In this document: one piece after another, positions 6,734-59,854 of the stretch
Layout of the letters: each line of letters starts with the position of its first letter
Numbering within the stretch: the stretch's first letter is position 1
Assembly: GCA_028821265.1 (NCBI GenBank)
Contig: JAPPGU010000082.1
Location: 1 to 64,000, forward strand
Length of the DNA: 64,000 bases
Reading direction: 5' to 3'
Source: a bacterium
GTDB taxonomy: Bacteria; Actinomycetota; Acidimicrobiia; Spongiisociales; Spongiisociaceae
Made by a program: the position numbers and the translations under genes
The notes under the pieces: model-generated
Told to the model about the DNA's origin: nothing
Databases searched by the model: none
The model's input: the letters and a program-made list of their open reading frames with translations, nothing else

Positions 6734-6826
6734 GTGATGCCTCGCCAGGTCAGGCGGGGGAGAGGGACGGCCGGTTGCGCCGGCAGGTTCCATGTCATGG
6801 CGATTAACAACGGAGAGGGGGTAAAG

Positions 6827-8071
6827 ATGCGGAGAGCAGGTACCTCGGCGCTCCTCGTAGCAGTAATGATGGTGGCGGCGGCGTGCGGAGAGTCCTTCGA
6901 AGCGGGCGAGTTGGGCGCCGTGGAAGTCGCGGAGGGCGAGGAAATTCAGATACGGTCGATCGGTCCGATCACCGGTGACGTCGCATTCCTCGGCGTTCCC
7001 AACCTGAGGGGGGTCGAGATGGCGGTCGCCGACTACGGGCCCATCGAGGGTTGGAGCGTCAGCATCGGTACGCCGATGGACGGCTTGTGCTCACCGGACG
7101 GTGGCCAGGCGGCCGGACAAGCAATCGTGGCCGACCCGCAAGTGGTCGGGGTGATCGGTACGGCCTGTTCCGGCGAGGCGGTGGCGGCGTCCCCGCTGAT
7201 CTCCGATGCCGGGATGGTGATGATCTCACCGTCCAACACCTCGCCGGCTCTCACTTCGGACATGGCAGGCACCGCGGGCACCGACTACCACGTCGGTTAC
7301 TACCGGACGGCCCACAACGACCTCATCCAGGGCAGGGCGGTGGCCCTGTTCGTTCGCAACGAGCTGGGTCTGGACGTGGCGGCGGCCATCCATGACGGCG
7401 ATCCCTACACCAACGGGCTGGCCACGGCCTTCAAGGACGCCTTCGAGGAGCTCGGGGGCACCGTGCCGGTCTTCACCGCCGTCAACAAGGGCGACACGGA
7501 CATGTCGGCCGTGCTGACCGAGGTGGCGGCCGGCAACCCGCAGGCGATCTTCTTCCCGATCTTCATGCCGGAGGGAGGGTTCGTTGTCCAGCAGATCGGC
7601 GGTATCTCCGGGTTGGAGGACGTAGTCCTGCTCTCGGCCGACGCCCTGCTGGTGGATAATTTCATGGAACTGCCGGAGTCGGAGGGGATATACCTGTCAG
7701 GCCCGGACGTCCGGTACGGGGACAACACGAACTCGATCACGGGCCAGTCGGCCAGCGGCGTCCTGGCGGCCTACAGCGCGAGGTACGGGGAGGAGCCGTC
7801 GGCCGCATTCTGGGCGCACTCGTACGACGCAACCGCCATGTTGCTGCAGGCGATCGCGAACGTGGCCGTCGTGGACGGCGACACGATGTACATCGACCGT
7901 CAAGCCCTCCGCGATGACCTGAACTCCCTCGAGTTCGACGGGCTCATCGGTTCCGTCGGATGCGACCAGTTCGGTGACTGCAGCCCGGGGTTGGTGACGC
8001 TGGTCCACCACACGAACTCCTCGGACATCGAGGCTGGCAAGGGCAACGTGGTATTCAGCTTCGCGCCTTGA
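6827..8071 (+). CDS. ABC transporter substrate-binding lipoprotein, Liv family, copy 1
   Basis: 414 residues from the ATG with GGAGAGGGGG upstream; an earlier in-frame GTG would add an unlikely N-terminus. The signal peptide has a lipobox ending A-A-A-C-G, so the mature protein should be anchored outside the membrane. The rest is a type I periplasmic-binding fold of the Peripla_BP_6 (LivJ/K) family: P-I-T-G-D near the N-terminus, the V-V-G-V-I-G strand, and the S-P-L-I-S-D-A-G-M-V-M-I-S-P block. Two further paralogues follow, and then livH-livM-livG-livF, so this is a binding subunit of one importer. The ligand could be a branched-chain amino acid, urea, an amide or a carboxylate; the sequence does not decide. 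Confidence 0.92.
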   Translation: MRRAGTSALLVAVMMVAAACGESFEAGELGAVEVAEGEEIQIRSIGPITGDVAFLGVPNLRGVEMAVADYGPIEGWSVSIGTPMDGLCSPDGGQAAGQAIVADPQVVGVIGTACSGEAVAASPLISDAGMVMISPSNTSPALTSDMAGTAGTDYHVGYYRTAHNDLIQGRAVALFVRNELGLDVAAAIHDGDPYTNGLATAFKDAFEELGGTVPVFTAVNKGDTDMSAVLTEVAAGNPQAIFFPIFMPEGGFVVQQIGGISGLEDVVLLSADALLVDNFMELPESEGIYLSGPDVRYGDNTNSITGQSASGVLAAYSARYGEEPSAAFWAHSYDATAMLLQAIANVAVVDGDTMYIDRQALRDDLNSLEFDGLIGSVGCDQFGDCSPGLVTLVHHTNSSDIEAGKGNVVFSFAP

Positions 8072-8107
8072 GTGTGAGCACCGCAGACCGCGGTAACGGG
8101 TGACTCG

Positions 8108-9391
8108 ATGACAGGACTCTCGCGGGCGCGATGGCTGCTCGCGGTCTCGGTCATGCTGGTGGCGGCATGTGGCGGGTCCGTCCCGACAGACTCCGATCAG
8201 ACCGATCCGGTCGAGTTCGAGGCGGGTCCGCTGGGCGCCGTGGTGGTCGCGCCCGGTGAGCAGATCCACATCCGGTCACTGAACTCGATCTCGGGCGACA
8301 TCGCCTTCCTCGGTATCCCGAACCAGCGCGGGGTGGAGATGGCGATAGCGGACTACGGTCCGGTGGCCGGGCGGGAAGTCTCGATGGGCACGCCGCTGGA
8401 TGATCTGTGTTCGCCCGAAGGAGGTCAGTCGGCCGCGCAGGCGACGGTGGCCGACCCGAGCGTGGTAGGCGTGATCGGGACCACCTGCTCGTCCGCGGCG
8501 GCGGCCGCGTCGCCGCTGATCTCCGATGCGGGGATGGTGATGATTGCCCCCTCCAACACGTCTCCGGCGTTGACGTCGGATCTGGCCGGAAATCCGAGTG
8601 CTTCTTACCATCCCGGCTACTACCGGACGGCGCACAACGACCTCTTCCAGGGCAAGGCGGTAGCCCTGTTCGTGCGCGACCATCTCGGGTTCGACACCGC
8701 TGCCGCCATCCATGACGGCGACCCGTACACGCAGGGCCTCGCGGAGGCCTTCAAGGATGCGTTCGAGGAACTCGGTGGCGCGGTGACGGCCTTCACGGCG
8801 GTGAACAAGGGCGACACAGACATGATCTCCGTGCTCACCGAGGTAGCGGCCGGCCGCCCCCAGGCTCTGTTCTTCCCGGTCTTCATGCCAGAGGGAGCGT
8901 TCATCGTCCAGCAGGTAGACGGCGTTACCGGTCTCGAGGACGTGACGCTGATCGTGTCGGCGGCGTTGCTGGTGGACAACTTCATGGAGTTGCCCGAGTC
9001 GCAGGGTGTTTACATCTCGGGACCTGATCTACGGTTCGGGGACAACCGCAACAGCATCACCGGACGTTCGGCGGTCGAGCTCCTGGATGCCTACGAAGCC
9101 GCCCACGGGGAGGCGCCGTCGGGCGGGTACCTGGCGCATGCGTACGACGCCACCACCATGCTGCTCCGGGCGATCGATCAGGTGGCCGTGGACGTAGACG
9201 GGACGCTCCATATCGACCGCGCGCAGGTGCGCGACGAACTGACCCGGACGAGTATGGACGGGATAATCGGCCCGATCGATTGCGACCAGTACGGCGACTG
9301 CGGCACCCAGCGGCTGACCGTGCTCTACAACACCGACCCGCGCAACATAGAGGCCGGCAAGAACAACGTCGTGTTCGAGTACGCACCCTAG
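8108..9391 (+). CDS. ABC transporter substrate-binding lipoprotein, Liv family, copy 2
   Basis: 427 residues with a lipobox ending V-A-A-C-G. It is closely similar along its length to the copies at 6827 and 9436: they share the C-S-P-E/D-G-G-Q segment, the T-A-H-N-D-L region after G-Y-Y-R, A-A-I-H-D-G-D-P-Y-T, N-K-G-D-T-D-M, L-L-V-D-N-F-M-E-L-P-E-S, and the C-D-Q-Y-G-D-C ending. The conserved cysteine pairs suggest disulfides in the extracellular domain. Tandem duplication is clear; differing residues around the hinge could mean different ligands. The stop is the first TAG of a heptad repeat array. Confidence 0.92.
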   Translation: MTGLSRARWLLAVSVMLVAACGGSVPTDSDQTDPVEFEAGPLGAVVVAPGEQIHIRSLNSISGDIAFLGIPNQRGVEMAIADYGPVAGREVSMGTPLDDLCSPEGGQSAAQATVADPSVVGVIGTTCSSAAAAASPLISDAGMVMIAPSNTSPALTSDLAGNPSASYHPGYYRTAHNDLFQGKAVALFVRDHLGFDTAAAIHDGDPYTQGLAEAFKDAFEELGGAVTAFTAVNKGDTDMISVLTEVAAGRPQALFFPVFMPEGAFIVQQVDGVTGLEDVTLIVSAALLVDNFMELPESQGVYISGPDLRFGDNRNSITGRSAVELLDAYEAAHGEAPSGGYLAHAYDATTMLLRAIDQVAVDVDGTLHIDRAQVRDELTRTSMDGIIGPIDCDQYGDCGTQRLTVLYNTDPRNIEAGKNNVVFEYAP

Positions 9392-9428
9392 GTTTAATTG
9401 CTAGTTACTAGTTGTTAGTTGCTAGTAG
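9389..9428 (+). repeat. Heptanucleotide CTAGTTG-type repeat at a gene 3' end
   Basis: The array begins with the TAG stop of the second binding-protein gene. Stops recur at 9395 (TAA), 9402, 9409, 9416 and 9423 in an exact 7-base register, with units such as CTAGTTA, CTAGTTG and TTAGTTG. Because 7 leaves remainder 1 on division by 3, all three forward frames are closed. Since CTAG is palindromic, the opposite strand also meets TAG. It is strongly AT-rich against the high-GC flanks and lies between the second and third binding-protein genes. Confidence 0.85.
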
Positions 9429-9435
9429 GTCTTCG

Positions 9436-10773
9436 ATGATTGGCGTGCGTAGGATTGGTCTCGTCTCGTTGTGCCTGTTCCTGGTCACCGTCGGCTGCGG
9501 CCAGGGCCAGTCGCAACCGGGATCGGACGATCCGCCTTCCGCTACCTCGGCGGTGGACTCTGTCGAGACTGACCGGGCCGCGCCGGAAGTCTCCGAGTTC
9601 TTGCCGGGCCCTCTGGGGGCGGTCGAGGTGGCGCCGGGTCAGGAGATTCAGATCCGCTCGCTCAACACGATCACCGGTGTGACGGCCTTCGCCGGCATCC
9701 CGAATCAGCGTGGCGTGGAGTTGGCGATCGCCGATTACGGGCCGATTGCGGGCCGTTCGGTGTCGCTGGGCACGCCGTTCGATGACCTCTGCTCGCCCGA
9801 AGGAGGTCAGTCGGCCGCGCAGACGATCGTGGCCGACCCGACCGTGGTGGGGGTGATCGGGACCACATGTTCCTCCTCGGCGGCGGCGGCGATGCCGTTG
9901 ATCTCGGGCGCGGGGATGGTGATGATCTCGCCGTCGAATGCGTCTCCCTGGCTGACTTCGGATCTGGCGGGAAACGCGGGGAGCGCTTACCTACCGGGCT
10001 ACTTCCGCACTTGCTACAACGGCTTGGTGCAGGGTAGGGCGGTGGCCGCCTTCGTCCGTGACCATCTCGGCTTCGACCGGGCGGCGACCATCCACGATGG
10101 CGATGCGTTCACCCAGGGTCTGGCGCGGTCGTTCGCGGATGCCTTCGAGGGGCTGGGAGGCGTGGTGACTGCGGTGGCGGCGGTGAACAAGGGCGATACG
10201 GACATGATCGGGGTGCTGACCGGCGTGGAGCCGGGATCGCCCCAGGCGGTGTTCTTGCCCATCTTCATGCCGGAGGGCGGTTTCGTCGCACAGCAGATCG
10301 GTGGTGTGTCGGGCCTCGAGAGGGTCACCCTGGTCGGTGCTGCACCACTGCTGGTGGACAACTTCATGGAGTTGCCCGAGTCGGAGGGCGTGTTCCTGTC
10401 CGGTCCGGATCTTCGCTACGGATCCAATCGGAACAGCATCACGGGTGCGTCGGCGGATGACTTCCTGGCGGCGTACGAAGCGGCGTACGGGGAGGCGCCC
10501 TCGACGGGTTTCTGGGCGCACGCCTACGACGCCGCCATCATGTTGCTCCGGGCCATCGATCGGGTGGCGGTCGAGGTCGACGGGACGTTGTACATCGATC
10601 GCCAGACCCTGCGCGAGGAGCTCCACCGGACCAGCTTCGACGGGATCACCGGTTCGATCACGTGCGACGAGTACGGTGACTGCGGGGCGCAGCGGATTGC
10701 GGTCGTGCAGCACACCGACTCGCGGGACGTGGAGGCAGGCAAGAACAACGTCGTCTTCGAATACGCGCCTTGA
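9436..10773 (+). CDS. ABC transporter substrate-binding lipoprotein, Liv family, copy 3
   Basis: 445 residues from the ATG at 9436; an in-frame TTG at 9412 lies inside the repeat array and is less likely. A signal peptide ends near V-T-V-G-C-G, giving a lipoprotein, followed by a longer Ser/Asp/Glu linker than in the two upstream copies. The binding domain is the same Peripla_BP_6 type, with the conserved N-T-I-T-G, C-S-P-E-G-G-Q and C-D-E-Y-G-D-C segments. It differs in the hinge region (Y-F-R-T-C-Y-N-G instead of Y-Y-R-T-A-H-N-D), which may alter ligand choice; that is inference. livH follows within 15 bases. Confidence 0.92.
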   Translation: MIGVRRIGLVSLCLFLVTVGCGQGQSQPGSDDPPSATSAVDSVETDRAAPEVSEFLPGPLGAVEVAPGQEIQIRSLNTITGVTAFAGIPNQRGVELAIADYGPIAGRSVSLGTPFDDLCSPEGGQSAAQTIVADPTVVGVIGTTCSSSAAAAMPLISGAGMVMISPSNASPWLTSDLAGNAGSAYLPGYFRTCYNGLVQGRAVAAFVRDHLGFDRAATIHDGDAFTQGLARSFADAFEGLGGVVTAVAAVNKGDTDMIGVLTGVEPGSPQAVFLPIFMPEGGFVAQQIGGVSGLERVTLVGAAPLLVDNFMELPESEGVFLSGPDLRYGSNRNSITGASADDFLAAYEAAYGEAPSTGFWAHAYDAAIMLLRAIDRVAVEVDGTLYIDRQTLREELHRTSFDGITGSITCDEYGDCGAQRIAVVQHTDSRDVEAGKNNVVFEYAP

Positions 10774-15291: not shown

Positions 15292-15459
15292 CTAGTGGTC
15301 TGTCTGCAAACGATCGGGTGGTCTGGCGGTCATCGGTGTCCCGTCGCTGCGTTCCGCTTCCTTGACGTACCGCTGCGGGTACGCCTTCGTCAGCGGGCCT
15401 TGCGAGGAACACCGCTGCCGACGCCATACCACACCGCTGTTACACAGACAGACCACTAG
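15292..15459 (+). mobile_element. 168-bp palindromic MITE-like element
   Basis: Terminal inverted repeats are perfect over 15 bases: CTAGTGGTCTGTCTG on the left and its complement on the right. Further inward the arms remain complementary with mismatches (GGTGGTCTGGCG against the complement of CGCCATACCACACC) to a centre near GTACCGCTGCGGGTAC. No reading frame for a transposase is visible, so it resembles a miniature inverted-repeat element or a large hairpin. It sits between livF and tRNA-Thr, where it could also act as a terminator. A matching solo end lies at 48423-48436. Confidence 0.75.
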
Positions 15460-20430: not shown

Positions 20431-21672
20431 ATGTTGGTTGATGTGTACGAAGCACCGACCTTTCATGACGCGGACTCGATCCTGGTCGCTGAGAACAACC
20501 TCAAGGACGCCCAGCGGGAGATCGACCGGCTCCGGGGCCGCCAACTCGCCTGGTTGAAGATGGTGGTCCGCCATCGGGGGATCGTCAGGGACGGATACCG
20601 CTCCCTGGTCGACTGGACAGCCTCTCGGCTTGACATACCTCATGCGGTCGCCCGTGATCTCGCCTACCTGGCCCTCCGGCTGGACGACGATCGGATCGAT
20701 TTGATACAGCGAGGGCATCTGCCGTACGACCGGACCGTGTCCCAACAACGCCTCCTCCAAGCCGGAGCAACCCCCGCCGATGTCGCCGCGTCAGAGGATC
20801 TGGACCTGGCCGCAGTGACCAAGCTGGCCACCAGGTTCCGCAAGCTCAGCCGGGGCGACGAGCGCAGTGCCTTCGAGAGACAGTACGTGAACCTGAGAGT
20901 GTCCGAAGACGGCGCCGTATGGCACCTCTCAGGCAGGCTCACCGCCACCGACGGACAAGTGGTACGCCAAGCTCTAGACCGCCGCGCCGACCACATACCA
21001 CCCATCACCTCTCAACCGGATACTGAGTTGACACCCGCTCAGAAACAGGCCATAGGCCTGACCACCATGGCCCAAGACGACCTGGACCAACACCTCCAAC
21101 CAGGCGACCCCGCCGGCCGGGAACCCGTCATCATGCTGATCAAAGACCAAACCCTCGCCGACCAGTCCGCCAACACCCAAGGCGTTGAGGTGTTCAACGG
21201 ACCCCGCGTCGGTCCTCAGGCAGTGGAGACGGTCGAGTGCGAAGGACGGGTCGAACCCGTCATCATCCAAGACGACCAAGTGGTGGACACCGGTCCACCC
21301 CAGCGTCAGACTCCCAAACGGCTCCGCCGGGCCGTGCTCGCACGGGACCGCAAATGCGTCATCGACTCATGCCAAAGCGGCTACCGGCTCCAGACCCACC
21401 ACGTCATCCCCAGACGCAACGGCGGTCCCGACACGGCCGACAACCTGGCGACGCTGTGCTGGTACCACCACCACATCGCCATTCACCGAAGGGGACACCG
21501 CATCGACCCCCAAACACCACCACACCGCCGCCGCCTTCTACCACCCCGAACCTGGGTCCACTACCGGCACCCCACCAACGTCGAATACTTCAGCCCCCAC
21601 CAACAGCAACAGCGCGCTTACCAGGCCTTCCTCGATAAGTACCACCCCCAACAACCCCACCCCGGCGGATAG
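20431..21672 (+). CDS. DUF222/HNH endonuclease domain protein
   Basis: 413 residues from the ATG at 20431; an upstream TTG at 20413 is possible. The N-terminal 250 residues match the DUF222 (13E12-repeat) helical domain, with L-A-Y-L-A-L-R-L and G-R-L-T-A-T-D-G-Q. The C-terminus has an HNH nuclease: R-D-R-K-C then C-Q-S-G-Y-R-L-Q-T-H-H-V-I-P-R, the N of D-N-L-A-T-L-C and final H-H-H. All zinc and catalytic positions appear intact. These proteins are many-copied and mobile-looking in actinobacteria; the function is unproven. Base composition is poorer in GC than its neighbours, suggesting transfer. Confidence 0.88.
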   Translation: MLVDVYEAPTFHDADSILVAENNLKDAQREIDRLRGRQLAWLKMVVRHRGIVRDGYRSLVDWTASRLDIPHAVARDLAYLALRLDDDRIDLIQRGHLPYDRTVSQQRLLQAGATPADVAASEDLDLAAVTKLATRFRKLSRGDERSAFERQYVNLRVSEDGAVWHLSGRLTATDGQVVRQALDRRADHIPPITSQPDTELTPAQKQAIGLTTMAQDDLDQHLQPGDPAGREPVIMLIKDQTLADQSANTQGVEVFNGPRVGPQAVETVECEGRVEPVIIQDDQVVDTGPPQRQTPKRLRRAVLARDRKCVIDSCQSGYRLQTHHVIPRRNGGPDTADNLATLCWYHHHIAIHRRGHRIDPQTPPHRRRLLPPRTWVHYRHPTNVEYFSPHQQQQRAYQAFLDKYHPQQPHPGG

Positions 21673-24830: not shown

Positions 24831-25565
24831 GTGACCCTGGAGCTGGTCCTACTCCTGGTGGCAGGGTTCGCCACCGGCTTCATCAACGCGGTGGCCGGTG
24901 GGGGATCGGCCCTGACCATCCCGCTGCTCACGCTCATGTCCGACGCCAACATCGCCAACGGCACCAACCGGGTGCCGGTGTTGTTCGCCAACCTGGCCGG
25001 CATCGCCGGTTACCAGAGGGGAGATTCTGTCCCGTGGAACCGGATATCGGTGCTGATACCGCCGGTGCTGGCCGGCGCCGGACTGGGAGCGTGGATCGCC
25101 ACCCTGATCCCGCCGGACGGTATGCAGCGGGTTTTTGCGGTCGTGCTGTTGCTGGTGGCGGTCTCGGCGGTGGTCAACACCAAGCAGTGGCTGGAGGAGG
25201 CACCGTCCCGGCTGGGCCCCGTCGGTCGGTCCGTCGCCTTCTTCTTCATCGGTTTCTACGGAGGGTTCGTCCAGATCGGGGTGGGGATCCTCCTGCTGAC
25301 CGCCCTGGTGCTCGGCTCCGGGTTCAGCATGCTGAGGGGGAACGGCGCCAAGGTGGTGATCATCGCCGCCTACTCGCTGATCACGCTGCCGTTCTACTTC
25401 TGGGCCGGGCACGTGGACCTGCGGCTCGGCGTGATCCTGGCCTTCGGGTTCTCGTCGGGCGCCTACCTGGCCGCGCGGCTGGCAGTACGCAAGGGGTCTG
25501 CCTGGGCGAGGTGGGTGCTGGTGGTCGCGGCGGTGGGGGCGGCTATCAGGATGATGTTCTGGTAG
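24831..25565 (+). CDS. TSUP (TauE/SafE) family membrane transporter
   Basis: 244 residues from a GTG six bases after bpa. About eight membrane helices in two repeats: the first has G-F-A-T-G-F-I-N-A-V-A-G-G-G-S and the second G-F-Y-G-G-F-V-Q-I-G-V-G, the paired glycine-rich signatures of the family. A T-N-R-V-P-V-L-F segment follows the first repeat. Members export sulfite, sulfoacetate or related anions; the substrate here cannot be told. The last base of the TAG stop is the first base of a palindromic repeat. Confidence 0.9.
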   Translation: MTLELVLLLVAGFATGFINAVAGGGSALTIPLLTLMSDANIANGTNRVPVLFANLAGIAGYQRGDSVPWNRISVLIPPVLAGAGLGAWIATLIPPDGMQRVFAVVLLLVAVSAVVNTKQWLEEAPSRLGPVGRSVAFFFIGFYGGFVQIGVGILLLTALVLGSGFSMLRGNGAKVVIIAAYSLITLPFYFWAGHVDLRLGVILAFGFSSGAYLAARLAVRKGSAWARWVLVVAAVGAAIRMMFW

Positions 25566-25665
25566 GAGGGTGCCGAAAGAGGCGGAGATTGGTTGGCCCG
25601 CGATGCTCCTAGCTGGGGTTTCGTATCCAGCTATCGGGCCAGCGGGACGATTCTCAACACCCTCC
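25565..25665 (+). repeat. ~100-bp palindromic repeat, copy after the TSUP gene
   Basis: It begins GGAGGGTGCCGAAAGA at the stop codon of the TSUP gene, contains GGTTGGCCCGCGATG and the central TGGGGTTTCGT, and closes with CGGGCCAGCGGGACG and CAACACCCTCC. The ends are imperfect inverted repeats of each other. The GGTTGGCCCGCGATG and GGGGTTTCGT blocks are shared with the copy at 51682. On transcription it forms a long hairpin between this gene and the convergent infA. Confidence 0.8.
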
Positions 25666-25704
25666 TAGCCGGTGTCTGGTCTGCGGGCCACCGGCGACCG
25701 GCTA

Positions 25705-31843: not shown

Positions 31844-32830
31844 GTGACCACGAGAAGGGTCTTTTCGGGGATCCAGCCCAGCGGTGACATCCACATCGGC
31901 AACTACATGGGAGCGCTCCGCAACTGGGTAGCCATGCAGGACGAGTACGCCACGGTCTACTGCGTGGTCGATCTCCATGCCCTGACCCTCCCTCAGGACC
32001 CGGCCGAACTGGCGCGAGCCCGGGTGCGGACCGCCAAGATCCTGCTGGCGGCGGGGATCGATCCCGGCCGCTCCCTGGTCTACTACCAGAGCCAGGTTCC
32101 GCAGCACGCCGAACTGTCCTGGATCATGGGAACCTTCGCCTCGATGGGCCAGCTGGGCCGGATGACCCAGTACAAGGAGAAGGAAGACAAGGGCGGGCAG
32201 AACCTGGGTCTGTTCTCCTATCCGGTGCTGATGGCAGCCGACATCCTGATCCACCGAGTGCATGCCGTGCCGGTCGGCAACGACCAGACCCAGCACCTCG
32301 AGTTCACCCGTGATCTCGTTGACCGGTTCAATTCCCGCTACGGGAACTTCTTCCCCGTGCCCGAACAGATAACCCCGCCCGTGGGAGCACGGGTGATGTC
32401 CCTGAAGGACCCCACCTCCAAGATGTCCAAGTCCGACCCGGATCCGAGCTCGCGGATAATCGTGACCGACGACACCGACACCATCGTCACCAAGGTCCGG
32501 CGGGCAGTCACCGACTCCGGCAAGCTGGTCGCCTACGACGTGGAGCGCAAGCCCGGGATCAGCAACCTGCTGGACATCCTGTCCGCGTTCACCGGCCGTA
32601 GCGTTCACGAACTGGCGGAGGAGTACCGCTCCGCCGGCTACGGACGGTTCAAGCAGACCGTTGCCGAGGCGGTGATCTCGGGGCTGTCGCCCGTGCGCCG
32701 AGCCTATCTCGACCTGGACGACCATGATGTGGAGCGGATCATGTCAGAGGGCGCCGAAGCGGCCCGAACCAGGGCAGAGGAGACCATGGCCGGCGTTCGC
32801 AGCCTGATCGGCCTCAGTCAGGACAACTAG
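31844..32830 (+). CDS. trpS: Tryptophanyl-tRNA synthetase
   Basis: 328 residues from a GTG; GGAGGTGATGAG lies upstream. The class Ic catalytic core has the HIGH-like G-D-I-H-I-G-N-Y near residue 14-21, the D-L-H-A-L-T segment, Q-Y-K-E-K for subunit contact, P-V-L-M-A-A-D-I-L for tryptophan binding, and K-M-S-K-S-D at about 195. It charges tRNA-Trp. The gene is divergent from cimA. Its stop overlaps that of the convergent CPBP gene within one CTAG. Confidence 0.96.
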   Translation: MTTRRVFSGIQPSGDIHIGNYMGALRNWVAMQDEYATVYCVVDLHALTLPQDPAELARARVRTAKILLAAGIDPGRSLVYYQSQVPQHAELSWIMGTFASMGQLGRMTQYKEKEDKGGQNLGLFSYPVLMAADILIHRVHAVPVGNDQTQHLEFTRDLVDRFNSRYGNFFPVPEQITPPVGARVMSLKDPTSKMSKSDPDPSSRIIVTDDTDTIVTKVRRAVTDSGKLVAYDVERKPGISNLLDILSAFTGRSVHELAEEYRSAGYGRFKQTVAEAVISGLSPVRRAYLDLDDHDVERIMSEGAEAARTRAEETMAGVRSLIGLSQDN

Positions 32831-32840
32831 AAACTAGAAA
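32826..32840. repeat. Short CTAG heptad at the trpS/CPBP junction
   Basis: ACTAGAAACTAGAAA places TAG at 32828 and 32835, seven bases apart. The first CTAG contains the trpS stop on the plus strand and the CPBP stop on the minus strand. It is the shortest of the CTAG arrays. Confidence 0.6.
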
Positions 32841-38868: not shown

Positions 38869-41091
38869 ATGATCGGGATGGTCCAGGTGATCGCAACCGA
38901 CACTGCTCCGAACGACCCCTCCGACTCCCCGCTGTTCGCCGATCTCAACCCGACCCAGCGGGAGGCGGTGGCCGCCACGGAGGGTCCCGTGCTGGTGGTG
39001 GCCGGCGCCGGCTCGGGCAAGACCAGGGTGCTCACCTACCGGGTCGCCCACCTGATACGCGACCTCGGGGTGGCTCCGTGGGAGGTTCTCGCCATCACCT
39101 TCACCAACAAGGCGGCCGGCGAGATGAAGGAGCGGGTCAGGAGGTTGGTCGGCCCGATGGCCAAGGGGATGTGGGTGTCCACCTTCCACTCCGCCTGCGT
39201 GAGGATCCTCCGCCGGGAGGCGCCCCGGCTGGGCTACTCGTCACAGTTCACCATCTACGACGCCCAGGACTCGCTCCGGGCCATCAACCAGGTGATCCGC
39301 GACCTGCGCCTGGACCCGAAGACCTTCCAGCCCCGGGCGATACGGGCGAAGATCTCGAACGCCAAGAACGAGTTGGTTGACTACGAGAGCTTTCTCGAAC
39401 TGGGAGGGAACTTCCGGCACGAGATCGAGGCCGACATCTACCGGCTCTACCAGGAGCAGCTATTGAAGAACTCGGCGATGGACTTCGACGACCTCCTCAT
39501 GGTCGCCACCGAAGTCTTCGACGCCTTCCCGGACGTGCTCGAGTACTACCGCGAGCGGTTCCGCTACCTGCATGTCGACGAGTTCCAGGACACCAACCGC
39601 GCCCAGTACGTGCTGGTCCGTCAGCTGGCCGGGGAGAGGGCGAATGTCTGCGCGGTCGGCGACTCCGATCAGTCGATCTACGCGTTCCGTGGGGCCGATA
39701 TCCGCAACATCCTCAATTTCGAGCGGGACTATCCCCAGGCTCGGGTGGTGGTGCTCGACCAGAACTATCGCTCCACCCAGACCATCCTGGAAGCCGCCAA
39801 CGCGGTGATCTCCCACAACGGTCGCCGCCAGCCCAAGCGGCTGTGGAGCGACCTCGGCCAGGGTGCTCCAATCGCGCTCTACACCGCAGAGGACGAGGCC
39901 GACGAGGGTGGGTTCGTGGCCGAGGAGATCCGCAAGTTGTCGAGAGAGGGCTTCGACCTGTCGCGAATGGCGGTGTTCTACCGGGTCAACGCCCAGAGCC
40001 GGGCCGTGGAGGAGAGCTTTGCCCGCTTCGGTGTGTCCTACCGCGTGATCGGCACGGTGCGTTTCTACGAGCGGCGCGAGATCAAGGATGTGCTGGCCTA
40101 TCTGCGGGTGCTGGTCAACCCGGCCGACGAAGTGTCGGTGCGCCGGATCATCAACCTGCCCCGGCGGGGCATCGGCGATGTGACGATCGGCTGGCTGGCC
40201 CGGTTCGCCGAGGCGGAGGAGACCACCTTCTTCGAGGCGGCCCGGCGCCACGCGGAGAACGACTCGCTGGCGAAGCGGGCCCACAGTGCCATCGACTCCT
40301 TTCTCTTCGATCTGGAAAAGGTCGCCGGCCATGCCGCGTCCGGTCCGGCGGCAGCCGTCAGGGCGGTGCTGGAGGAGGTCGGCTACCTCGAGGTGGTCGA
40401 GGCCGAGGGCACCGTCGAGGCTCAGGGGAGGGCCGAGAACCTGCGCGAGCTTCTCTCCGGCGCGGAGGAGTTCGAACTGGCCGCCCTGCCGGATGAGGGG
40501 GAAGAACCGGACGGGATGCGCCTGGTGGAGCAGTTCCTCGAGTCGGTCAGCCTGGTGAGCGATACCGACGAGTTGGATGACAAAGGCGGCGCGGTGACCC
40601 TCATGACCCTGCACAACGCCAAGGGCCTCGAGTTCCCGGTGGTGTTCATCGTGGGCATGGAGGACGGGATCTTCCCCTACGCCCGGGCCCTTACCGACCA
40701 CGACGAGCTCGAGGAGGAGCGCCGGCTCTGCTACGTGGGTCTCACCCGGGCGCAGGAGCGCCTCTACCTGTCAGCCTCCCGGTCCCGCCTGCTGTACGGG
40801 ATGTCCACCTACAACCCACCCTCCCGGTTCCTGCGAGAGATACCGGTCGGCCTGGTCAACAAGCTGGGCAGGCGCCTGAGGGACCACCGCCGGGAGTCGA
40901 TCGGCGGGCGCCGCCGGGCGCGGCTCGGTACCGACCTGGCAGTGGACGATCGGGTGCGACATGACGTCTGGGGAATCGGCCGGGTGGTCAGCGTGGAGGG
41001 CACCGGTGGCGGCGCCCAGGTCGAGGTGGACTTCCCGACCAAGGGCACCAAGCGGCTCCTCGTTCACTGGGCCCCGCTGGAGAAGGTCTAG
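38869..41091 (+). CDS. pcrA: ATP-dependent DNA helicase PcrA/UvrD family
   Basis: 740 residues from the ATG at 38869, with a nearby ATG at 38878. The superfamily 1A motifs are in order: Q-motif L-N-P-T-Q-R-E-A-V, Walker A A-G-A-G-S-G-K-T, F-T-N-K-A-A motif Ia, V-D-E-F-Q-D-T-N (motif II), G-D-S-D-Q-S-I-Y (motif III), N-Y-R-S (motif IV), T-L-H-N-A-K-G-L-E-F (motif V) and V-G-L-T-R-A (motif VI). A C-terminal Tudor-like domain follows (D-D-R-V-R-H-D-V-W-G-I-G-R-V-V), used in PcrA to bind RNA polymerase. It unwinds DNA 3'-5' in repair and replication restart. The stop opens a heptad array. Confidence 0.95.
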   Translation: MIGMVQVIATDTAPNDPSDSPLFADLNPTQREAVAATEGPVLVVAGAGSGKTRVLTYRVAHLIRDLGVAPWEVLAITFTNKAAGEMKERVRRLVGPMAKGMWVSTFHSACVRILRREAPRLGYSSQFTIYDAQDSLRAINQVIRDLRLDPKTFQPRAIRAKISNAKNELVDYESFLELGGNFRHEIEADIYRLYQEQLLKNSAMDFDDLLMVATEVFDAFPDVLEYYRERFRYLHVDEFQDTNRAQYVLVRQLAGERANVCAVGDSDQSIYAFRGADIRNILNFERDYPQARVVVLDQNYRSTQTILEAANAVISHNGRRQPKRLWSDLGQGAPIALYTAEDEADEGGFVAEEIRKLSREGFDLSRMAVFYRVNAQSRAVEESFARFGVSYRVIGTVRFYERREIKDVLAYLRVLVNPADEVSVRRIINLPRRGIGDVTIGWLARFAEAEETTFFEAARRHAENDSLAKRAHSAIDSFLFDLEKVAGHAASGPAAAVRAVLEEVGYLEVVEAEGTVEAQGRAENLRELLSGAEEFELAALPDEGEEPDGMRLVEQFLESVSLVSDTDELDDKGGAVTLMTLHNAKGLEFPVVFIVGMEDGIFPYARALTDHDELEEERRLCYVGLTRAQERLYLSASRSRLLYGMSTYNPPSRFLREIPVGLVNKLGRRLRDHRRESIGGRRRARLGTDLAVDDRVRHDVWGIGRVVSVEGTGGGAQVEVDFPTKGTKRLLVHWAPLEKV

Positions 41092-41131
41092 ATCTGGTTG
41101 CTAGTTTATTGTTAGTAGTTGCTAGTTTGTA
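41089..41131 (+). repeat. CTAGTTG-type heptad array at the pcrA 3' end
   Basis: The array starts at the pcrA TAG and carries TAG at 41102, 41113, 41116 and 41123; units read GGTTG, CTAGTTT, TTAGTAG, TTGCTAG with drift from exact period 7. It is AT-rich against its flanks and closes all forward frames. Confidence 0.7.
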
Positions 41132-41146
41132 TTGGAATGGACTGAG

Positions 41147-41181
41147 CACGGGCCACGGGCCTCTGACCACTGACCGCGGCG
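41147..41181 (+). repeat. Heptad array of CACGGGC and CACTGAC units
   Basis: Four consecutive seven-base units stand end to end: CACGGGC, CACGGGC, CTCTGAC, CACTGAC, with a degenerate fifth, CGCGGCG. TGA recurs at 41164 and 41171. The unit length is the same as in the CTAG arrays, with a different core. It lies in the pcrA-transaldolase gap, 45 bases before the GTG of the next gene. Confidence 0.65.
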
Positions 41182-46466: not shown

Positions 46467-47327
46467 ATGAGCGCACAGGTCCTTGACGGCAAGGCCGTGG
46501 CCCGGGCGGTCCTGGCCGAGACCGCCGAACGGGTGGCCGCCCTGAGCGACCGGGGCAAGGAGACCACCCTGGCGACCGTACTGGTGGGGGAAGACCCGGC
46601 CTCCGCCGCCTACGTCCGTTCCAAGCGCAGACGGGCGGCGGAAGTGGGCATCCGCTCCGTTCACCATGAGCTGGCCGGTGACGCGTCCCAGGACCGGGTG
46701 GTGGACCTCCTCCGGCGCCTCAACGAGGACCCCTCCGTCGACGGCATCCTGCTCCAGCTCCCGCTACCGGCGGGGCTGAACGACCAGAGCGCCACGATCG
46801 AGATCGATCCGGCCAAGGACGTGGACGGCCTCCATCCCACCAACCTCGGGATGATCGTTCTTGATCGCCCCGTGTTCGCGCCCTGCACCCCGAGCGGCTG
46901 CCTCCGCATCCTCGAGCATTACGACGTTCCGCTCCGGGGAGCGAACGTGGTGGTGGTGGGGCGTTCCTTCCTGGTCGGGCGGCCCCTCGCTCTGCTCCTG
47001 GCGGCGCGCGGCGTCGACGCCACGGTGACGATCGCCCACTCCCGTACGGAGGACCTCCCCGGCGTCACCCGCCGGGCCGACATCCTGGTGGTGGCGGTCG
47101 GCCGACCCGAGATGGTCACCGGCCGCTACGTCCGGGAGGGCGCCGTGGTGATCGACGTAGGTATCAACCGGACTGCGTCGGGGTCGCTGGTGGGGGACGT
47201 CAAGTACGAGGAGGTGGCGGAAGTGGCGGCCGCCATCACCCCGGTACCGGGCGGGGTCGGTCCCATGACCGTGGCCATGCTCATGCACAACACCGCCGTA
47301 GCCTCCGGGATGAGGGCGCGTCCCTAG
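46467..47327 (+). CDS. folD: Methylenetetrahydrofolate dehydrogenase/cyclohydrolase
   Basis: 286 residues from the ATG behind GGGGAGCGAG. The catalytic lysine lies in Y-V-R-S-K-R-R. Q-L-P-L-P and the D-V-D-G-L-H-P-T-N segment, V-V-G-R-S-F-L-V-G-R-P for NADP binding, and the closing T-P-V-P-G-G-V-G-P-M-T are all present. The enzyme interconverts 5,10-methylene-, methenyl- and 10-formyl-THF. Its stop overlaps that of menC in one CTAG. purH and folD form a natural pair through formyl-THF. Confidence 0.96.
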   Translation: MSAQVLDGKAVARAVLAETAERVAALSDRGKETTLATVLVGEDPASAAYVRSKRRRAAEVGIRSVHHELAGDASQDRVVDLLRRLNEDPSVDGILLQLPLPAGLNDQSATIEIDPAKDVDGLHPTNLGMIVLDRPVFAPCTPSGCLRILEHYDVPLRGANVVVVGRSFLVGRPLALLLAARGVDATVTIAHSRTEDLPGVTRRADILVVAVGRPEMVTGRYVREGAVVIDVGINRTASGSLVGDVKYEEVAEVAAAITPVPGGVGPMTVAMLMHNTAVASGMRARP

Positions 47328-50737: not shown

Positions 50738-50881
50738 GTAGTAGGCCAAGTCAACTCCGTCTCTTTCGGCTTGCTCCTAGGAGTGTGCTGAAAGATGTCC
50801 GGTTGGCCCGATGGTCGGTGACCGACCGCAGTCGCCGGGTAGTAGTGCCAACTATCGCAGTCTCTTCTCGGCATGCTCCTA
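50738..50881 (+). repeat. ~100-bp palindromic repeat, full copy plus an extra right arm
   Basis: A full copy runs from 50778 (TAGGAGTGTGCTGAAAGATG, then CCGGTTGGCCCG) to 50881 (GCCAACTATCGCAGTC, ending CATGCTCCTA). Its centre has GGTCGGTGACCGACC. Directly before it, 50738-50780 is another right arm (GGCCAAGTCAACTCCGTC, then TTGCTCCTA), so a partial element abuts or was interrupted by the complete one. The whole lies between mdh and hupB and contains no reading frame of note. Confidence 0.7.
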
Positions 50882-50936: not shown

Positions 50937-51212
50937 ATGAACAAGCGTGATCTGGCAGATGTGGTTGCCTACGAGACCGGGACCTCCCGGAGCCGGGCTA
51001 TGGCGAGCGTCAACGTGGTGTTCGAGACGATCGCGGGGGCGCTCCGGGAGGGAGCGGACGTCCGGATCACCGGGTTCGGCACGTTCGTGGTGCGGCAACG
51101 CAAGGCTCGGACCGGTCGCAATCCTCGGACGGGCGAAGCGGTCGAGATTCCAGCCACCAGATCGCCGGCCTTCAAGCCTTCGAAGGCCCTCAAGGACCGC
51201 ATCAATAGCTAG
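50937..51212 (+). CDS. hupB: HU-family nucleoid protein
   Basis: 91 residues, the short bacterial HU form without the basic tail of mycobacterial HupB. M-N-K-R-D-L-A-D-V-V at the start, the V-R-I-T-G-F-G-T-F-V core, the R-x-G-R-N-P-R-T-G-E beta-arm that wraps DNA, and F-K-P-S-K-A-L-K at the end are all normal. It compacts and bends DNA. The stop TAG is the first of five TAGs in a perfect heptad array. The unusually basic tail of CarD in this genome may complement the tail-less HU; that is speculation. Confidence 0.95.
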   Translation: MNKRDLADVVAYETGTSRSRAMASVNVVFETIAGALREGADVRITGFGTFVVRQRKARTGRNPRTGEAVEIPATRSPAFKPSKALKDRINS

Positions 51213-51258
51213 TTGCTAGTTGTTAGTTACTAGTTGTTAGTATCAAAACTAGCGACTA
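51206..51258. repeat. CTAGTTG heptad array between hupB and the SCP2 gene
   Basis: TAG recurs at 51210, 51217, 51224, 51231 and 51238, exactly every seven bases; the first is the hupB stop. Units are CTAGTTG, CTAGTTG, TTAGTTA, CTAGTTG. After ATCAAAA, a shorter reversed part AACTAGCGACTAGT contains the TAG stop of the convergent SCP2 gene. Opposite-facing units can pair, giving a weak hairpin. This is the cleanest example in the window. Confidence 0.9.
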
Positions 51259-51645
51259 GTACTCCACCTCAAGGTCGGAAACGGCATCCGCCAAGTGATC
51301 CAGCGCTCGCTGGTTCAGCAGCAGCTTGGCCACGTTGCCGGAGATGGCCAGCTTCCCGCTGAAGAATGCGCTCTGGATCTTCAGCGTCCCTTGGGAGATG
51401 GCCGACGCCGTTGCATAGTCCGTCCTGACGGCTAGGTCCGCCTGCGGGAGGGTTCCGATCGTCAGCACCGCGTCATCACCGGCCACTTCGAGGTAGTAAG
51501 AAGCCGCGGGCCCGTCGGGGATCTGGTCGATCTCGAACTGGACCGAGAACTCGACGCCTTCCACGGCGGTATCGAAGCCGGGATGGTCGCGCACCGCCGC
51601 CGTCACCTGCTCGGCCCATTCGGCGCTCAGGAACCTAGCCGCCAT
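51256..51645 (-). CDS. SCP2 sterol-binding domain protein
   Basis: 129 residues making up one SCP2-like domain: a hydrophobic lipid cavity is suggested by alternating strands F-S-V-Q-F-E-I, Y-Y-L-E-V-A, A-V-L-T-I-G and D-L-A-V-R-T, then the A-x-x-I-S-Q-G-T-L-K, F-x-S-G-K-L-A-I-S-G-N-V block that identifies the family. Such proteins bind lipids or acyl-CoA and often occur with catabolic enzymes. No catalytic residues are known. It converges on hupB across the heptad array and is followed upstream by a palindromic repeat. Confidence 0.88.
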   Translation of the reverse strand: MAARFLSAEWAEQVTAAVRDHPGFDTAVEGVEFSVQFEIDQIPDGPAASYYLEVAGDDAVLTIGTLPQADLAVRTDYATASAISQGTLKIQSAFFSGKLAISGNVAKLLLNQRALDHLADAVSDLEVEY

Positions 51646-51681
51646 GGTTGCTACCTCCGCGATGCCCCATCACCGCCCAAT

Positions 51682-51781
51682 GAGGGTGCTGAAAAAGACG
51701 GGGATGGGTTGGCCCGCGATGTCGCGACCTGGGGTTTCGTTGCCGGTCTCCGGGCCAACTGGACATTTTTCAGTACCCTCC
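51682..51781 (+). repeat. ~100-bp palindromic repeat, copy overlapping the sdhB stop
   Basis: The left end reads GAGGGTGCTGAAAAAGACG, then GGGTTGGCCCGCGATG, a central TGGGGTTTCGT, CGGGCCAACTGGACA and TTTTTCAGTACCCTCC at the right. The termini are good inverted repeats. The right end supplies the last sense codons G-Y (or G-G-Y) and the TGA of sdhB, read on the minus strand. It is the best-preserved copy and the closest to the one at 25565. Confidence 0.85.
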
Positions 51782-52528
51782 CAGCTTCCGGTTGCGTATC
51801 TTGGACAGCAGGTAGTCGCGGTTCATCATGGCGATGTTATCCAGGGAGATCCCCTTCGGACACGCAGGCTCGCACTCGCCGTGGTTGGAGCAGGAGCCGA
51901 AGTACTCCTCCATGGTCTCCACCATGCGCTCGACTCGCATCCAGCGCTCCGGTTGGCCCTGCGGCAACAGGTTGAGGTGGGCGACCTTGGCGGCGGTGAA
52001 GAGTTGGCCCGCTCCGTTGGGACAGGCGGCCACGCAGGCCCCGCATCCGATACAGGCCGCCGCATCCATGGCGGCGTCGGATGTCTCCTTCGGCACCGGC
52101 GTCAGGTTGGCCTCTGGCGCCGATCCGGTCGGGGCGCCGATGTAGCCGCCGGCCTCGATGATCCGGTCGAACGCCTCCCGGTCCACCACCAGGTCGCGCA
52201 CGATCGGGAAGGACGTGGCCCGCCAGGGCTCGATCACGATCGTGTCGCCGTCCGAGAACTCCCGCATGTGGAGCTGGCAGGTGGCGGTGCTTCCCTGGGG
52301 TCCGTGTGCTCGGCCGTCGATCATCAGGCCGCAAGATCCGCAGATGCCCTCCCTGCAGTCGTGGTCGAAGGCGATCGGTTCGCGACCTGCGGTTAGGAGC
52401 CGCTCGTTGACCAGATCGAGCATTTCCAGGAACGACATGTCCTGGTGGATGCCGGCGGCCTCGTATGTCTCGAACCGGCCCTCCGCTTCCGGACCGTCCT
52501 GTCGCCATACCCGCAACGTCAGATGCAT
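51770..52528 (-). CDS. sdhB: Succinate dehydrogenase iron-sulfur subunit
   Basis: 252 residues. The N-terminal 2Fe-2S domain has [10 protein letters not shown] and a later C; the C-terminal domain has [13 protein letters not shown] (4Fe-4S) and [12 protein letters not shown] (3Fe-4S). Sequence style ([13 protein letters not shown]) is that of type-B quinol-linked complexes, as in Bacteroidetes and some actinobacteria. The final codons and stop come from a palindromic repeat, so the C-terminus may be altered compared with relatives. It ends the sdhCAB operon. Confidence 0.95.
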
Positions 52529-57092: not shown

Positions 57093-57314
57093 ATGATTCC
57101 CAAGATCCAAGGTGGCGAGATCATCGTTATTCTCGTGGTAATCCTGCTCCTGTTCGGCGCCAGGAAGCTTCCGGAACTGGCGCGTTCGCTCGGCAGCTCG
57201 GCTCGAGAGTTCCGTAAGGGAATCGAAGAGGGCCGCACCGAGGAGCAGGACGAGGCAGCACCCACCACGACGATCTCCGACTCCAGCACCACCACTTCCG
57301 GCACCGAGACTTAG
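57093..57314 (+). CDS. tatA: Sec-independent translocase subunit TatA
   Basis: 73 residues: one N-terminal membrane helix (I-I-V-I-L-V-V-I-L-L-L-F-G), then the F-G-A-R-K-L-P-E-L-A-R-S-L-G amphipathic-helix signature, a charged helix and a Thr/Ser-rich tail. TatA oligomers form the translocation path for folded proteins in the twin-arginine system. tatC is not adjacent, which is common in actinobacteria. Its TAG opens a heptad array. The upstream 106 bp has a possible promoter near 57032-57065 (TTGCTC and TTATCA), weakly supported. Confidence 0.9.
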   Translation: MIPKIQGGEIIVILVVILLLFGARKLPELARSLGSSAREFRKGIEEGRTEEQDEAAPTTTISDSSTTTSGTET

Positions 57315-57400
57315 TTGTTAGTTGCTAGTTGCTGTTGGATTCCACTGACTAGCAGCTGCTGACGCCCGCAGAAGGGGCCGCTGGCCGCTTTCCAGTGGCC
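57312..57400 (+). repeat. Mixed heptad array at the tatA 3' end
   Basis: TAG recurs at 57312, 57319 and 57326 every seven bases, the first being the tatA stop, so three frames close within 17 bases. Further along, CACTGAC, TAGCAGC and TGCTGAC stand end to end (57343-57363), and GGCCGCT is doubled at 57376-57389 followed by TTCCAGT. The gap from tatA to the peroxiredoxin gene thus holds several heptad families and no gene. Confidence 0.7.
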
Positions 57401-59204: not shown

Positions 59205-59306
59205 TAGTGCCCGTGTGAGGAGACGGGATAGGTTGGCCCGCCAGGCTCTGATCCGGGGTGTATTGCCGGGTATAGCGCCACCGGGAGGTTCTTCAGTACC
59301 TTCCTA
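59205..59306 (+). repeat. ~100-bp palindromic repeat, copy before moaE
   Basis: The left arm is decayed at its tip but keeps GAGGAGACGGGATAGGTTGGCC. The centre has CCGGGGTGTATTGCCGGG, and the right arm ends GGTTCTTCAGTACCTTCCTA. The right tip matches the copy at 51682 (TTCAGTACC). It lies between the divergent zincin and moaE starts, so here it is near 5' ends, unlike most copies. Confidence 0.65.
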
Positions 59307-59317
59307 GACTCCAACGC

Positions 59318-59764
59318 ATGGAATCTCCACAGCAGCGGGAGCGGGCTCGATGCCGGGTCCGGGTCTCCGCCCGGCCCATCGATCCGCGCTCACTGGTCAG
59401 CGAGGTGAGCGGCCCGCCGAGCGGGGCAATCGCTCTCTTCCTGGGCACCGTGCGGGATCATTCCCCCGGCAGGCAGGGGATAACCCACCTGGAATACGAG
59501 GCCTACGAGGCCCACGTGGTGGGCAGGATCGAGGAGATCGTGGAAGAGGCCACGGCTCGCTGGCCCATCAACGCGGTGGTGGTCGAGCACCGCGTCGGAC
59601 GGGTGGAGTTGACCGAGGCCTCGGTGGCGGTGGCCGTCGCCTGCGCACATCGCCCCGAAGCGTTCGAAGCCGCCCGATACCTGATCGACGAGCTCAAGGC
59701 CCGCGCCCCCATCTGGAAGAAGGAAGTCTGGCCGGAGGGAGAAGCCTGGTCCCCGGGCTCGTAG
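59318..59764 (+). CDS. moaE: Molybdopterin synthase large subunit MoaE
   Basis: 148 residues. G-A-I-A-L-F-L-G-T-V-R-D-H near residue 35, L-E-Y-E-A-Y-E, V-E-H-R-V-G-R-V, V-A-V-A-C-A-H-R-P-E-A-F, and the catalytic lysine region A-P-I-W-K-K-E are the usual marks. With MoaD it inserts sulfur into precursor Z to make molybdopterin. moaD and other moa genes are absent from the window. Convergent with bioY over an inverted heptad array. Confidence 0.95.
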   Translation: MESPQQRERARCRVRVSARPIDPRSLVSEVSGPPSGAIALFLGTVRDHSPGRQGITHLEYEAYEAHVVGRIEEIVEEATARWPINAVVVEHRVGRVELTEASVAVAVACAHRPEAFEAARYLIDELKARAPIWKKEVWPEGEAWSPGS

Positions 59765-59854
59765 TCTGGTTGCTCGTCGCCAGTTGCTAGCTGCTAGTTG
59801 AGTTACACTATCTTTACTATGAACTAACAACTACAAACTAGAGACTAGCAACTA
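59762..59854. repeat. Inverted CTAG heptad arrays between moaE and bioY
   Basis: After the moaE TAG, forward units CCAGTTG, CTAGCTG and CTAGTTG give TAG at 59788 and 59795. About 30 bases on, reversed units (CTAACAACTAC, AAACTAG, AGACTAG, CAACTAG) run up to the bioY stop, whose TAG is part of the last unit. The two arms are largely complementary, so the transcript from either side could form a hairpin with a loop around 59805-59822. It combines stop arrays for both genes and a possible bidirectional terminator. Confidence 0.8.

Follow-up and report, generated by a model that had tools for sequence, protein, structure and literature searches.

Stop-anchored TAGTTGC heptad arrays across an acidimicrobial genome and their likeness to mobile repeats

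The genome studied here carries a real, genome-wide family of 7-bp tandem repeats, with units such as TAGTTGC, that is anchored at stop codons. In its behaviour, the family resembles a repeat that is mobile or prone to slippage and does no harm when it lands on stops, rather than a device that catches read-through. The window (the whole stretch of 64,000 nucleotides that was analysed) comprises the initial 64 kb of a contig 165 kb long, in a draft genome of 2.6 Mb that is 85% complete, has 87 contigs and a GC content of 67%, and in which some contigs break off within arrays. Gene-level statistics were taken from stretches totalling 1.08 Mb (41% of the genome), in which 987 genes were called from codon usage; these end in TGA (576), TAG (347), or TAA (48). 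PcrA is 89-96% identical in Acidimicrobiia MAGs, for example SB0664_bin_25 and CO36404bin_8, and these and similar MAGs are presumably sponge-derived.

Arrays were defined as (TAGTTNN)x3, with the reversed sequence as a control. By this definition, 71 arrays are present in the 1.08 Mb, relative to 2 in the reversed sequence. Similarly, a three-unit pattern with up to 2 mismatches has 181 matches in the whole genome (102 + 79), relative to 4 (3 + 1) in the reversed control, and intergenic TAG-TAG spacings peak at 7, 14, 21, and 28 nt (252, 175, 118, and 63 occurrences, versus ~28 at other spacings). Among the 69 arrays that lie away from contig ends, 39 have a gene stop as unit 1, 2, or 3, and a further 11 begin 1-10 nt past a stop. 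An initial annotation of the window had proposed that such arrays are tied to stop codons in an actinobacterium, and both the enrichment and the setting (Acidimicrobiia) were borne out by this genome-wide scan.

The arrays are distributed unevenly among gaps between genes. None of the 318 operon-internal gaps shorter than 30 nt contains an array, and only 4 of 169 gaps of 30-100 nt do, whereas arrays occur in 22 of 199 codirectional gaps of at least 100 nt and in 21 of 89 convergent gaps of 40-150 nt. Additionally, a heptad array starts 3 nt past the 3' end of a tRNA-Leu(CAA) gene (locus L048, 10216-10337; C23:30216-30337, minus strand). The same anchoring is present in related species: the stop is unit 1-2 in 10 of 15 arrays of G006, where 3 more lie just past a stop, and 7 of 13 arrays are likewise anchored in G010, a member of a neighbouring genus. 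Operon-internal gaps are again array-free in both genomes. Exact arrays were detected in 12 of the 138 genomes of the window's order, mostly in the same genus.

Within the window, the relevant gene ends and repeats are as follows.

50937..51212, + strand: hupB (HU family; Pfam PF00216, 5.9e-32), whose TAG stop at 51210-51212 is array unit 1
51210..51242, + strand: sense heptad arm of five units (TAGTTGC/TAGTTGT/TAGTTAC), read from the sequence
51249..51258, - strand: opposite arm, beginning on the TAG stop of a convergent SCP2-like gene (51256-51645, minus)
57312..57330, + strand: heptad arm on the TAG stop of a tatA-like gene (57093-57314), exactly in phase with the stop
57329..57353, + strand: core TGTTGGATTCCACTGAC, which has copies elsewhere, then the opposite arm; hairpin fold
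59762..59799, + strand: degenerate heptad arm from the moaE stop (59762-59764)
59815..59854, - strand: heptad arm from the stop of convergent bioY (59852-59854)
41089..41134, + strand: pcrA/uvrD stop and imperfect heptad arm, then core TTGTATTGGAATGGACTGA
41161..41178, + strand: right arm of a second heptad type, (CTGACCA)n
9389..9427, + strand: stop of a Peripla_BP_6 gene (9389-9391) and an out-of-register array from 9395
32827..32838, no strand assigned: minimal site CTAG-AAA-CTAG (CTAGAAACTAG) at the overlapping convergent stops of a tyrosyl/tryptophanyl-tRNA synthetase gene and an Rce1-like gene
47324..47327, no strand assigned: bare CTAG at overlapping convergent stops

After hupB, the TAG triplets at 51210, 51217, 51224, 51231, and 51238 described in the initial annotation are exact. 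Of the six gene ends at which it had a TAG stop opening an array, those at 51210 and 57312 are in register, and the other four need correction. At 9389 and 41089 the stop and the array are out of register (the next array TAG is 13 nt off, with the arrays at +6), the 32826 site has only two CTAGs where convergent stops overlap, and at 59762 the sense arm is degenerate, the clean array being that on the other strand from the bioY stop. The array at 9389 lies between the second and third of three tandem paralogous periplasmic-binding-protein genes (6797-10773) that are 66-72% identical. Elsewhere in the window, an HNH endonuclease gene (20431-21672) has an 86% identical paralogue at C31:5086-6321, and a search of the window with Rfam found tRNAs and no other family.

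In many cases, an array forms one arm of an inverted repeat. In codirectional gaps with an array, an opposite arm is present downstream in 12 of 22 cases, in comparison to 3 of 177 gene ends without an array, and the second arm is thus not explained by the stop of an opposite gene. Like MITEs, the heptad elements therefore have terminal inverted repeats. Several have a core near TTATRTTGGATTANAC that lies between a TAGTTGC arm and a second arm built of CTGACCA units (on the other strand, TAGTGGTCAGTGGTCAG), and this core, flanked by these two kinds of arm, recurs at several loci and in several species. The shared core also provides the dispersed homologous copies that are typical of MITEs, although few copies are found at high stringency.

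The sites at which the arrays are found have a common sequence context. CTAG occurs 251 times in 951 kb of coding sequence, 470 times in 125 kb of intergenic sequence, and 134 times at stops, and a C or T directly precedes the TAG of an array in 41 of 50 cases, compared with about half at other TAG stops. Two further repeat families, here termed MITE-1 and MITE-2, are present in the window.

15293-15458: MITE-1, ~167 bp, with ends TAGTGGTCTGTCTG and flanks C|TAG...CTA|G
25564-25666, 50779-50880, 51680-51782, and about 59213-59301: MITE-2, ~103 bp, with ends AGGAGGGTGCTGAAAA

There are ~20 convincing copies of MITE-1 per 1.08 Mb, nine of which are exactly on stop codons. Copies of MITE-2 are missing at the same places in at least one sister species; for instance, the copy at 25564..25666 sits precisely within the TAG stop of the gene at 24831-25565, and the site is empty in G003 and G006. 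For this insertion, at 25566, the target duplication with an empty site in a relative is clear. Both families use a CTAG/TA target, as do the heptad arrays, and all three are found on stop codons. Within coding sequence, CTAG is hardly found other than at stops, where insertion regenerates the TAG; the anchoring is therefore mostly explained by target choice and purifying selection. Arrays are on stops in 57% of cases, relative to 37% expected from the CTAG sites outside genes and promoters (p = 9e-4), an excess that is not firm because convergent sites count twice.

We lean towards the explanation, with modest confidence, that the arrays are the arms of short mobile inverted-repeat elements that occupy CTAG/TTAG sites, are filtered by selection, and are then altered by slippage. 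Such elements would be non-coding and ~40-110 bp long, each arm being a run of 7-bp units of TAGTTGC or its relative CAGTGGT, so that the element reads TAG...CTA. They would occupy CTAG/TTAG sites outside gene bodies, sites that are nearly purged from coding sequence in this 67% GC genome and concentrated at TAG stops and in intergenic DNA. The end of the element would resupply the TAG, such that a stop, or the CTAG of two overlapping convergent stops, is preserved and both proteins remain intact. Insertions in coding sequence, operon-internal gaps, and promoters would be lost to selection, and the number of units would later rise and fall through slippage. We infer both the transposition of heptad elements and the selective filtering of the survivors from these patterns.

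Some observations count against this explanation: the stop excess given above (57% versus 37%), the lack of a clean target duplication, and the lack of a transposase partner. Among the sister species, the comparison yielded no TAGTTGC element with a clean empty site in one genome, a filled site in another, and a duplicated target. The nearest is at 47324, where the overlapping stops are a bare CTAG in G000 and G006 and CTAG-39 bp-CTAG with a heptad-like segment in G003, with extra changes beside it. IS630 (PF13358) and PF13546 transposases were rejected as partners, as these domains are absent from the genomes searched (which are incomplete drafts). PF01609 has few hits in these incomplete drafts and their ends do not match; in G006, what looked like a MITE-1 end at a DDE_Tnp_1 gene was discarded as a chance 11-base match within the gene. 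As these drafts yielded no transposase whose ends match, we do not class the heptad family as a proven MITE. A unit composed of a 4-bp target and a 3-bp excision footprint was also rejected, since TGGTCAG arrays keep the period without CTAG. Additionally, TAGT is conserved above TGC within units, which pure slippage does not predict and which also counts against this explanation.

Comparison with sister species bears both on this explanation and on a more tentative one, in which the arrays are minisatellites that grew in place. CTAG stop contexts, such as overlapping convergent stops, would seed slippage with no transposition, and selection would halt growth at the coding boundary. Consistent with in-place growth, minimal sites exist beside long ones: the site at 32827 has grown to 80 nt in G006, and the moaE end of G001 is a minimal site (TAGTCTAGTTTCTAGAG) where sisters have long ones. 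Unit numbers also change, the arm at 57312 having 3 units here, 3 in G001, 4 in G006, and 5 in G007, while four other species have the same TAG and no TAGTTG array. Homogenised runs, (TGGACAG)n and TAG(TGGTCAG)n, are likewise as expected from slippage. However, in-place growth does not readily account for the dispersed shared core, the inverted second arm in codirectional gaps, or independent MITE families with the same anchoring. Nor does it fit the reversed element at the hupB end of G007, which again begins with TAG on the stop. At this gene end, the stop is TAG in every species compared and is followed by TAGTTG arrays, the reversed element, a bare TGGTCAG array, MITE-1, or another repeat. 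In-place growth is thus possible but not what we would expect.

Orthologues that lack the array found on a TAG stop in G000 end in TAG in 19 of 25 cases and in TGA in 6 of 25, although these sites are few and not independent. A native stop was apparently replaced at contig position 69258, where G002 and G008 have TGA. Of the three roles initially suggested for the arrays, a spreading neutral repeat therefore fits best, with the amendment that its TAG mostly pre-exists and replaces a native stop only sometimes. In G008, a further dispersed repeat, with stretches such as GCGATAGCAAACGAACGC and GCGACTACTAACAAACGC, lies at the same gene ends, namely at hupB (L207) and at the moaE site (L219-L221). 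In the 41091 region, comparison of the pcrA end with L119, L120, and G003 indicates that its final codons vary together with the downstream repeat, and the C-terminus thus differs by a few residues among close species.

A third reading, which we find doubtful, is that the arrays or their hairpins are transcript 3'-end elements that terminate or trim RNA at unit ends, acting bidirectionally between convergent genes. The confinement of arrays to unit ends, the array past tRNA-Leu(CAA), and the conserved TAGT are all in keeping with such a role. Array regions also fold better than dinucleotide shuffles (mean z -2.2 for convergent and -1.5 for codirectional sites), in comparison to a mean z of ~-0.2 for codirectional ends without arrays. 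However, an intrinsic terminator is a GC-rich hairpin followed by a U-tract, and here the stems are AU-rich and no U-tract lies 3' of the hairpins. Furthermore, an arm-swap test of low power gave the two arms of one site no pairing advantage over arms exchanged between sites (12 sites, mean z 0.03, p = 0.91); maintenance of the hairpins by arm co-evolution was rejected on this test, which covers only 12 sites. Most unit ends are array-free, and one and the same gene end has an array, a MITE, or neither across sisters. Together these points are weak evidence against a putative terminator role. Isolation of convergent genes, as initially suggested, is a possible role: arrays are enriched between such genes, but their own arms pair no better than swapped ones and many arrays lie between codirectional genes.

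Whether the TAGs are themselves selected was assessed from within-unit conservation, counted with even conditioning across positions. The TAG part of a unit is changed less often than the TTGC part (p = 6e-7). When TAG does change, it becomes TAA in 3 of 156 cases, TGG in 7 of 152, and CAG in 4 of 156, and the sixth-position G changes to A in 10 of 105 (p = 0.008 relative to TAG to TAA). TAG is therefore conserved beyond TTGC and yet TAA is not preferred, which suggests that something other than frame closing favours TAG; candidates are CTAG pairing between arms, a binding site, or homogenisation. One quite improbable version of a binding site is that TAGT heptads form a binding array for a putative RNA/DNA 3'-end factor of the genus, as U-tract-free unit-end marks on both strands that are spread by mobile elements. 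If true, this would represent lineage-specific, U-tract-free transcript-end formation. By far the least credible reading, and a role first proposed from the window, is that tandem TAGs catch ribosomes that read through the native stop: all three frames are indeed closed by three units, and arrays do begin at stops, but selection for frame closing was rejected because changes to non-stops are at least as common as those to TAA. In addition, sister arrays of the form TAG(TGGTCAG)n lack any stop beyond their initial TAG, one array follows a tRNA gene, and operon-internal stops have none.

The nearest published case found is that of the TAACTGA heptamers, direct repeats that form many small intergenic sets in Beggiatoaceae, some Cyanobacteria, and Bacteroidetes (MacGregor 2015, PMC4679880). 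These sets provide three-frame stops in one orientation. Most are located immediately 5' of start codons and some overlap the upstream gene's stop, with a single indirect repeat reported in the main genome; horizontal spread is suspected, by a mechanism that is unknown (PMC4679880). More generally, in most genomes that are rich in repeats of 5-11 nt, no class of these is commoner than the heptanucleotides (PMC4679880). The arrays described here share with TAACTGA their intergenic heptads, three-frame stops, and occasional overlap with an upstream stop. They differ in that they begin at stops, extend in the downstream direction, and commonly form pairs of inverted arms.

Other known repeats are similar in part. 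The STRR of heterocystous cyanobacteria are heptanucleotide repeats that include hairpin-forming heptads in a tRNA-Leu intron. Like STRR, the present arrays are intergenic and made of 7-bp units repeated in tandem a variable number of times, with slippage and possible hairpins, but they have another unit and are from another phylum, and STRR, as they are generally described, are not tied to stop codons. Bacterial MITEs with TA or CTAG/YTAR targets include Correia elements and IS5- or IS630-derived MITEs. MITE-1 and MITE-2 fit this class directly, and the heptad elements resemble it as short, non-coding, intergenic inverted repeats with a TA-centred target; their terminal repeats, however, are arrays of changing length. 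REP/BIME palindromes, which are mobilised by RAYT (TnpA-REP), are also extragenic hairpins that are often found between convergent genes and near transcript ends. Unlike these, the heptad elements have a tandem structure and their genus has no Y1 transposase; REP/RAYT membership was rejected, as IS200-type Y1 (PF01797) was found in 0 of 15 genomes.

In the literature searched, no description of intergenic tandem repeats turned up for Acidimicrobiia, and the stop-anchored TAGTTGC family of this class has, as far as we could find, not been described previously. Its distribution offers a simple, testable explanation for repeats that resemble deliberate gene-end punctuation, and advises caution towards reading them as a translation-safety device. 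An element that begins with TAG repairs the stop in which it lands, and three repeat families in one genome do so. In a high-GC genome, stop codons may thus be the sites at which mobile DNA can insert most safely.
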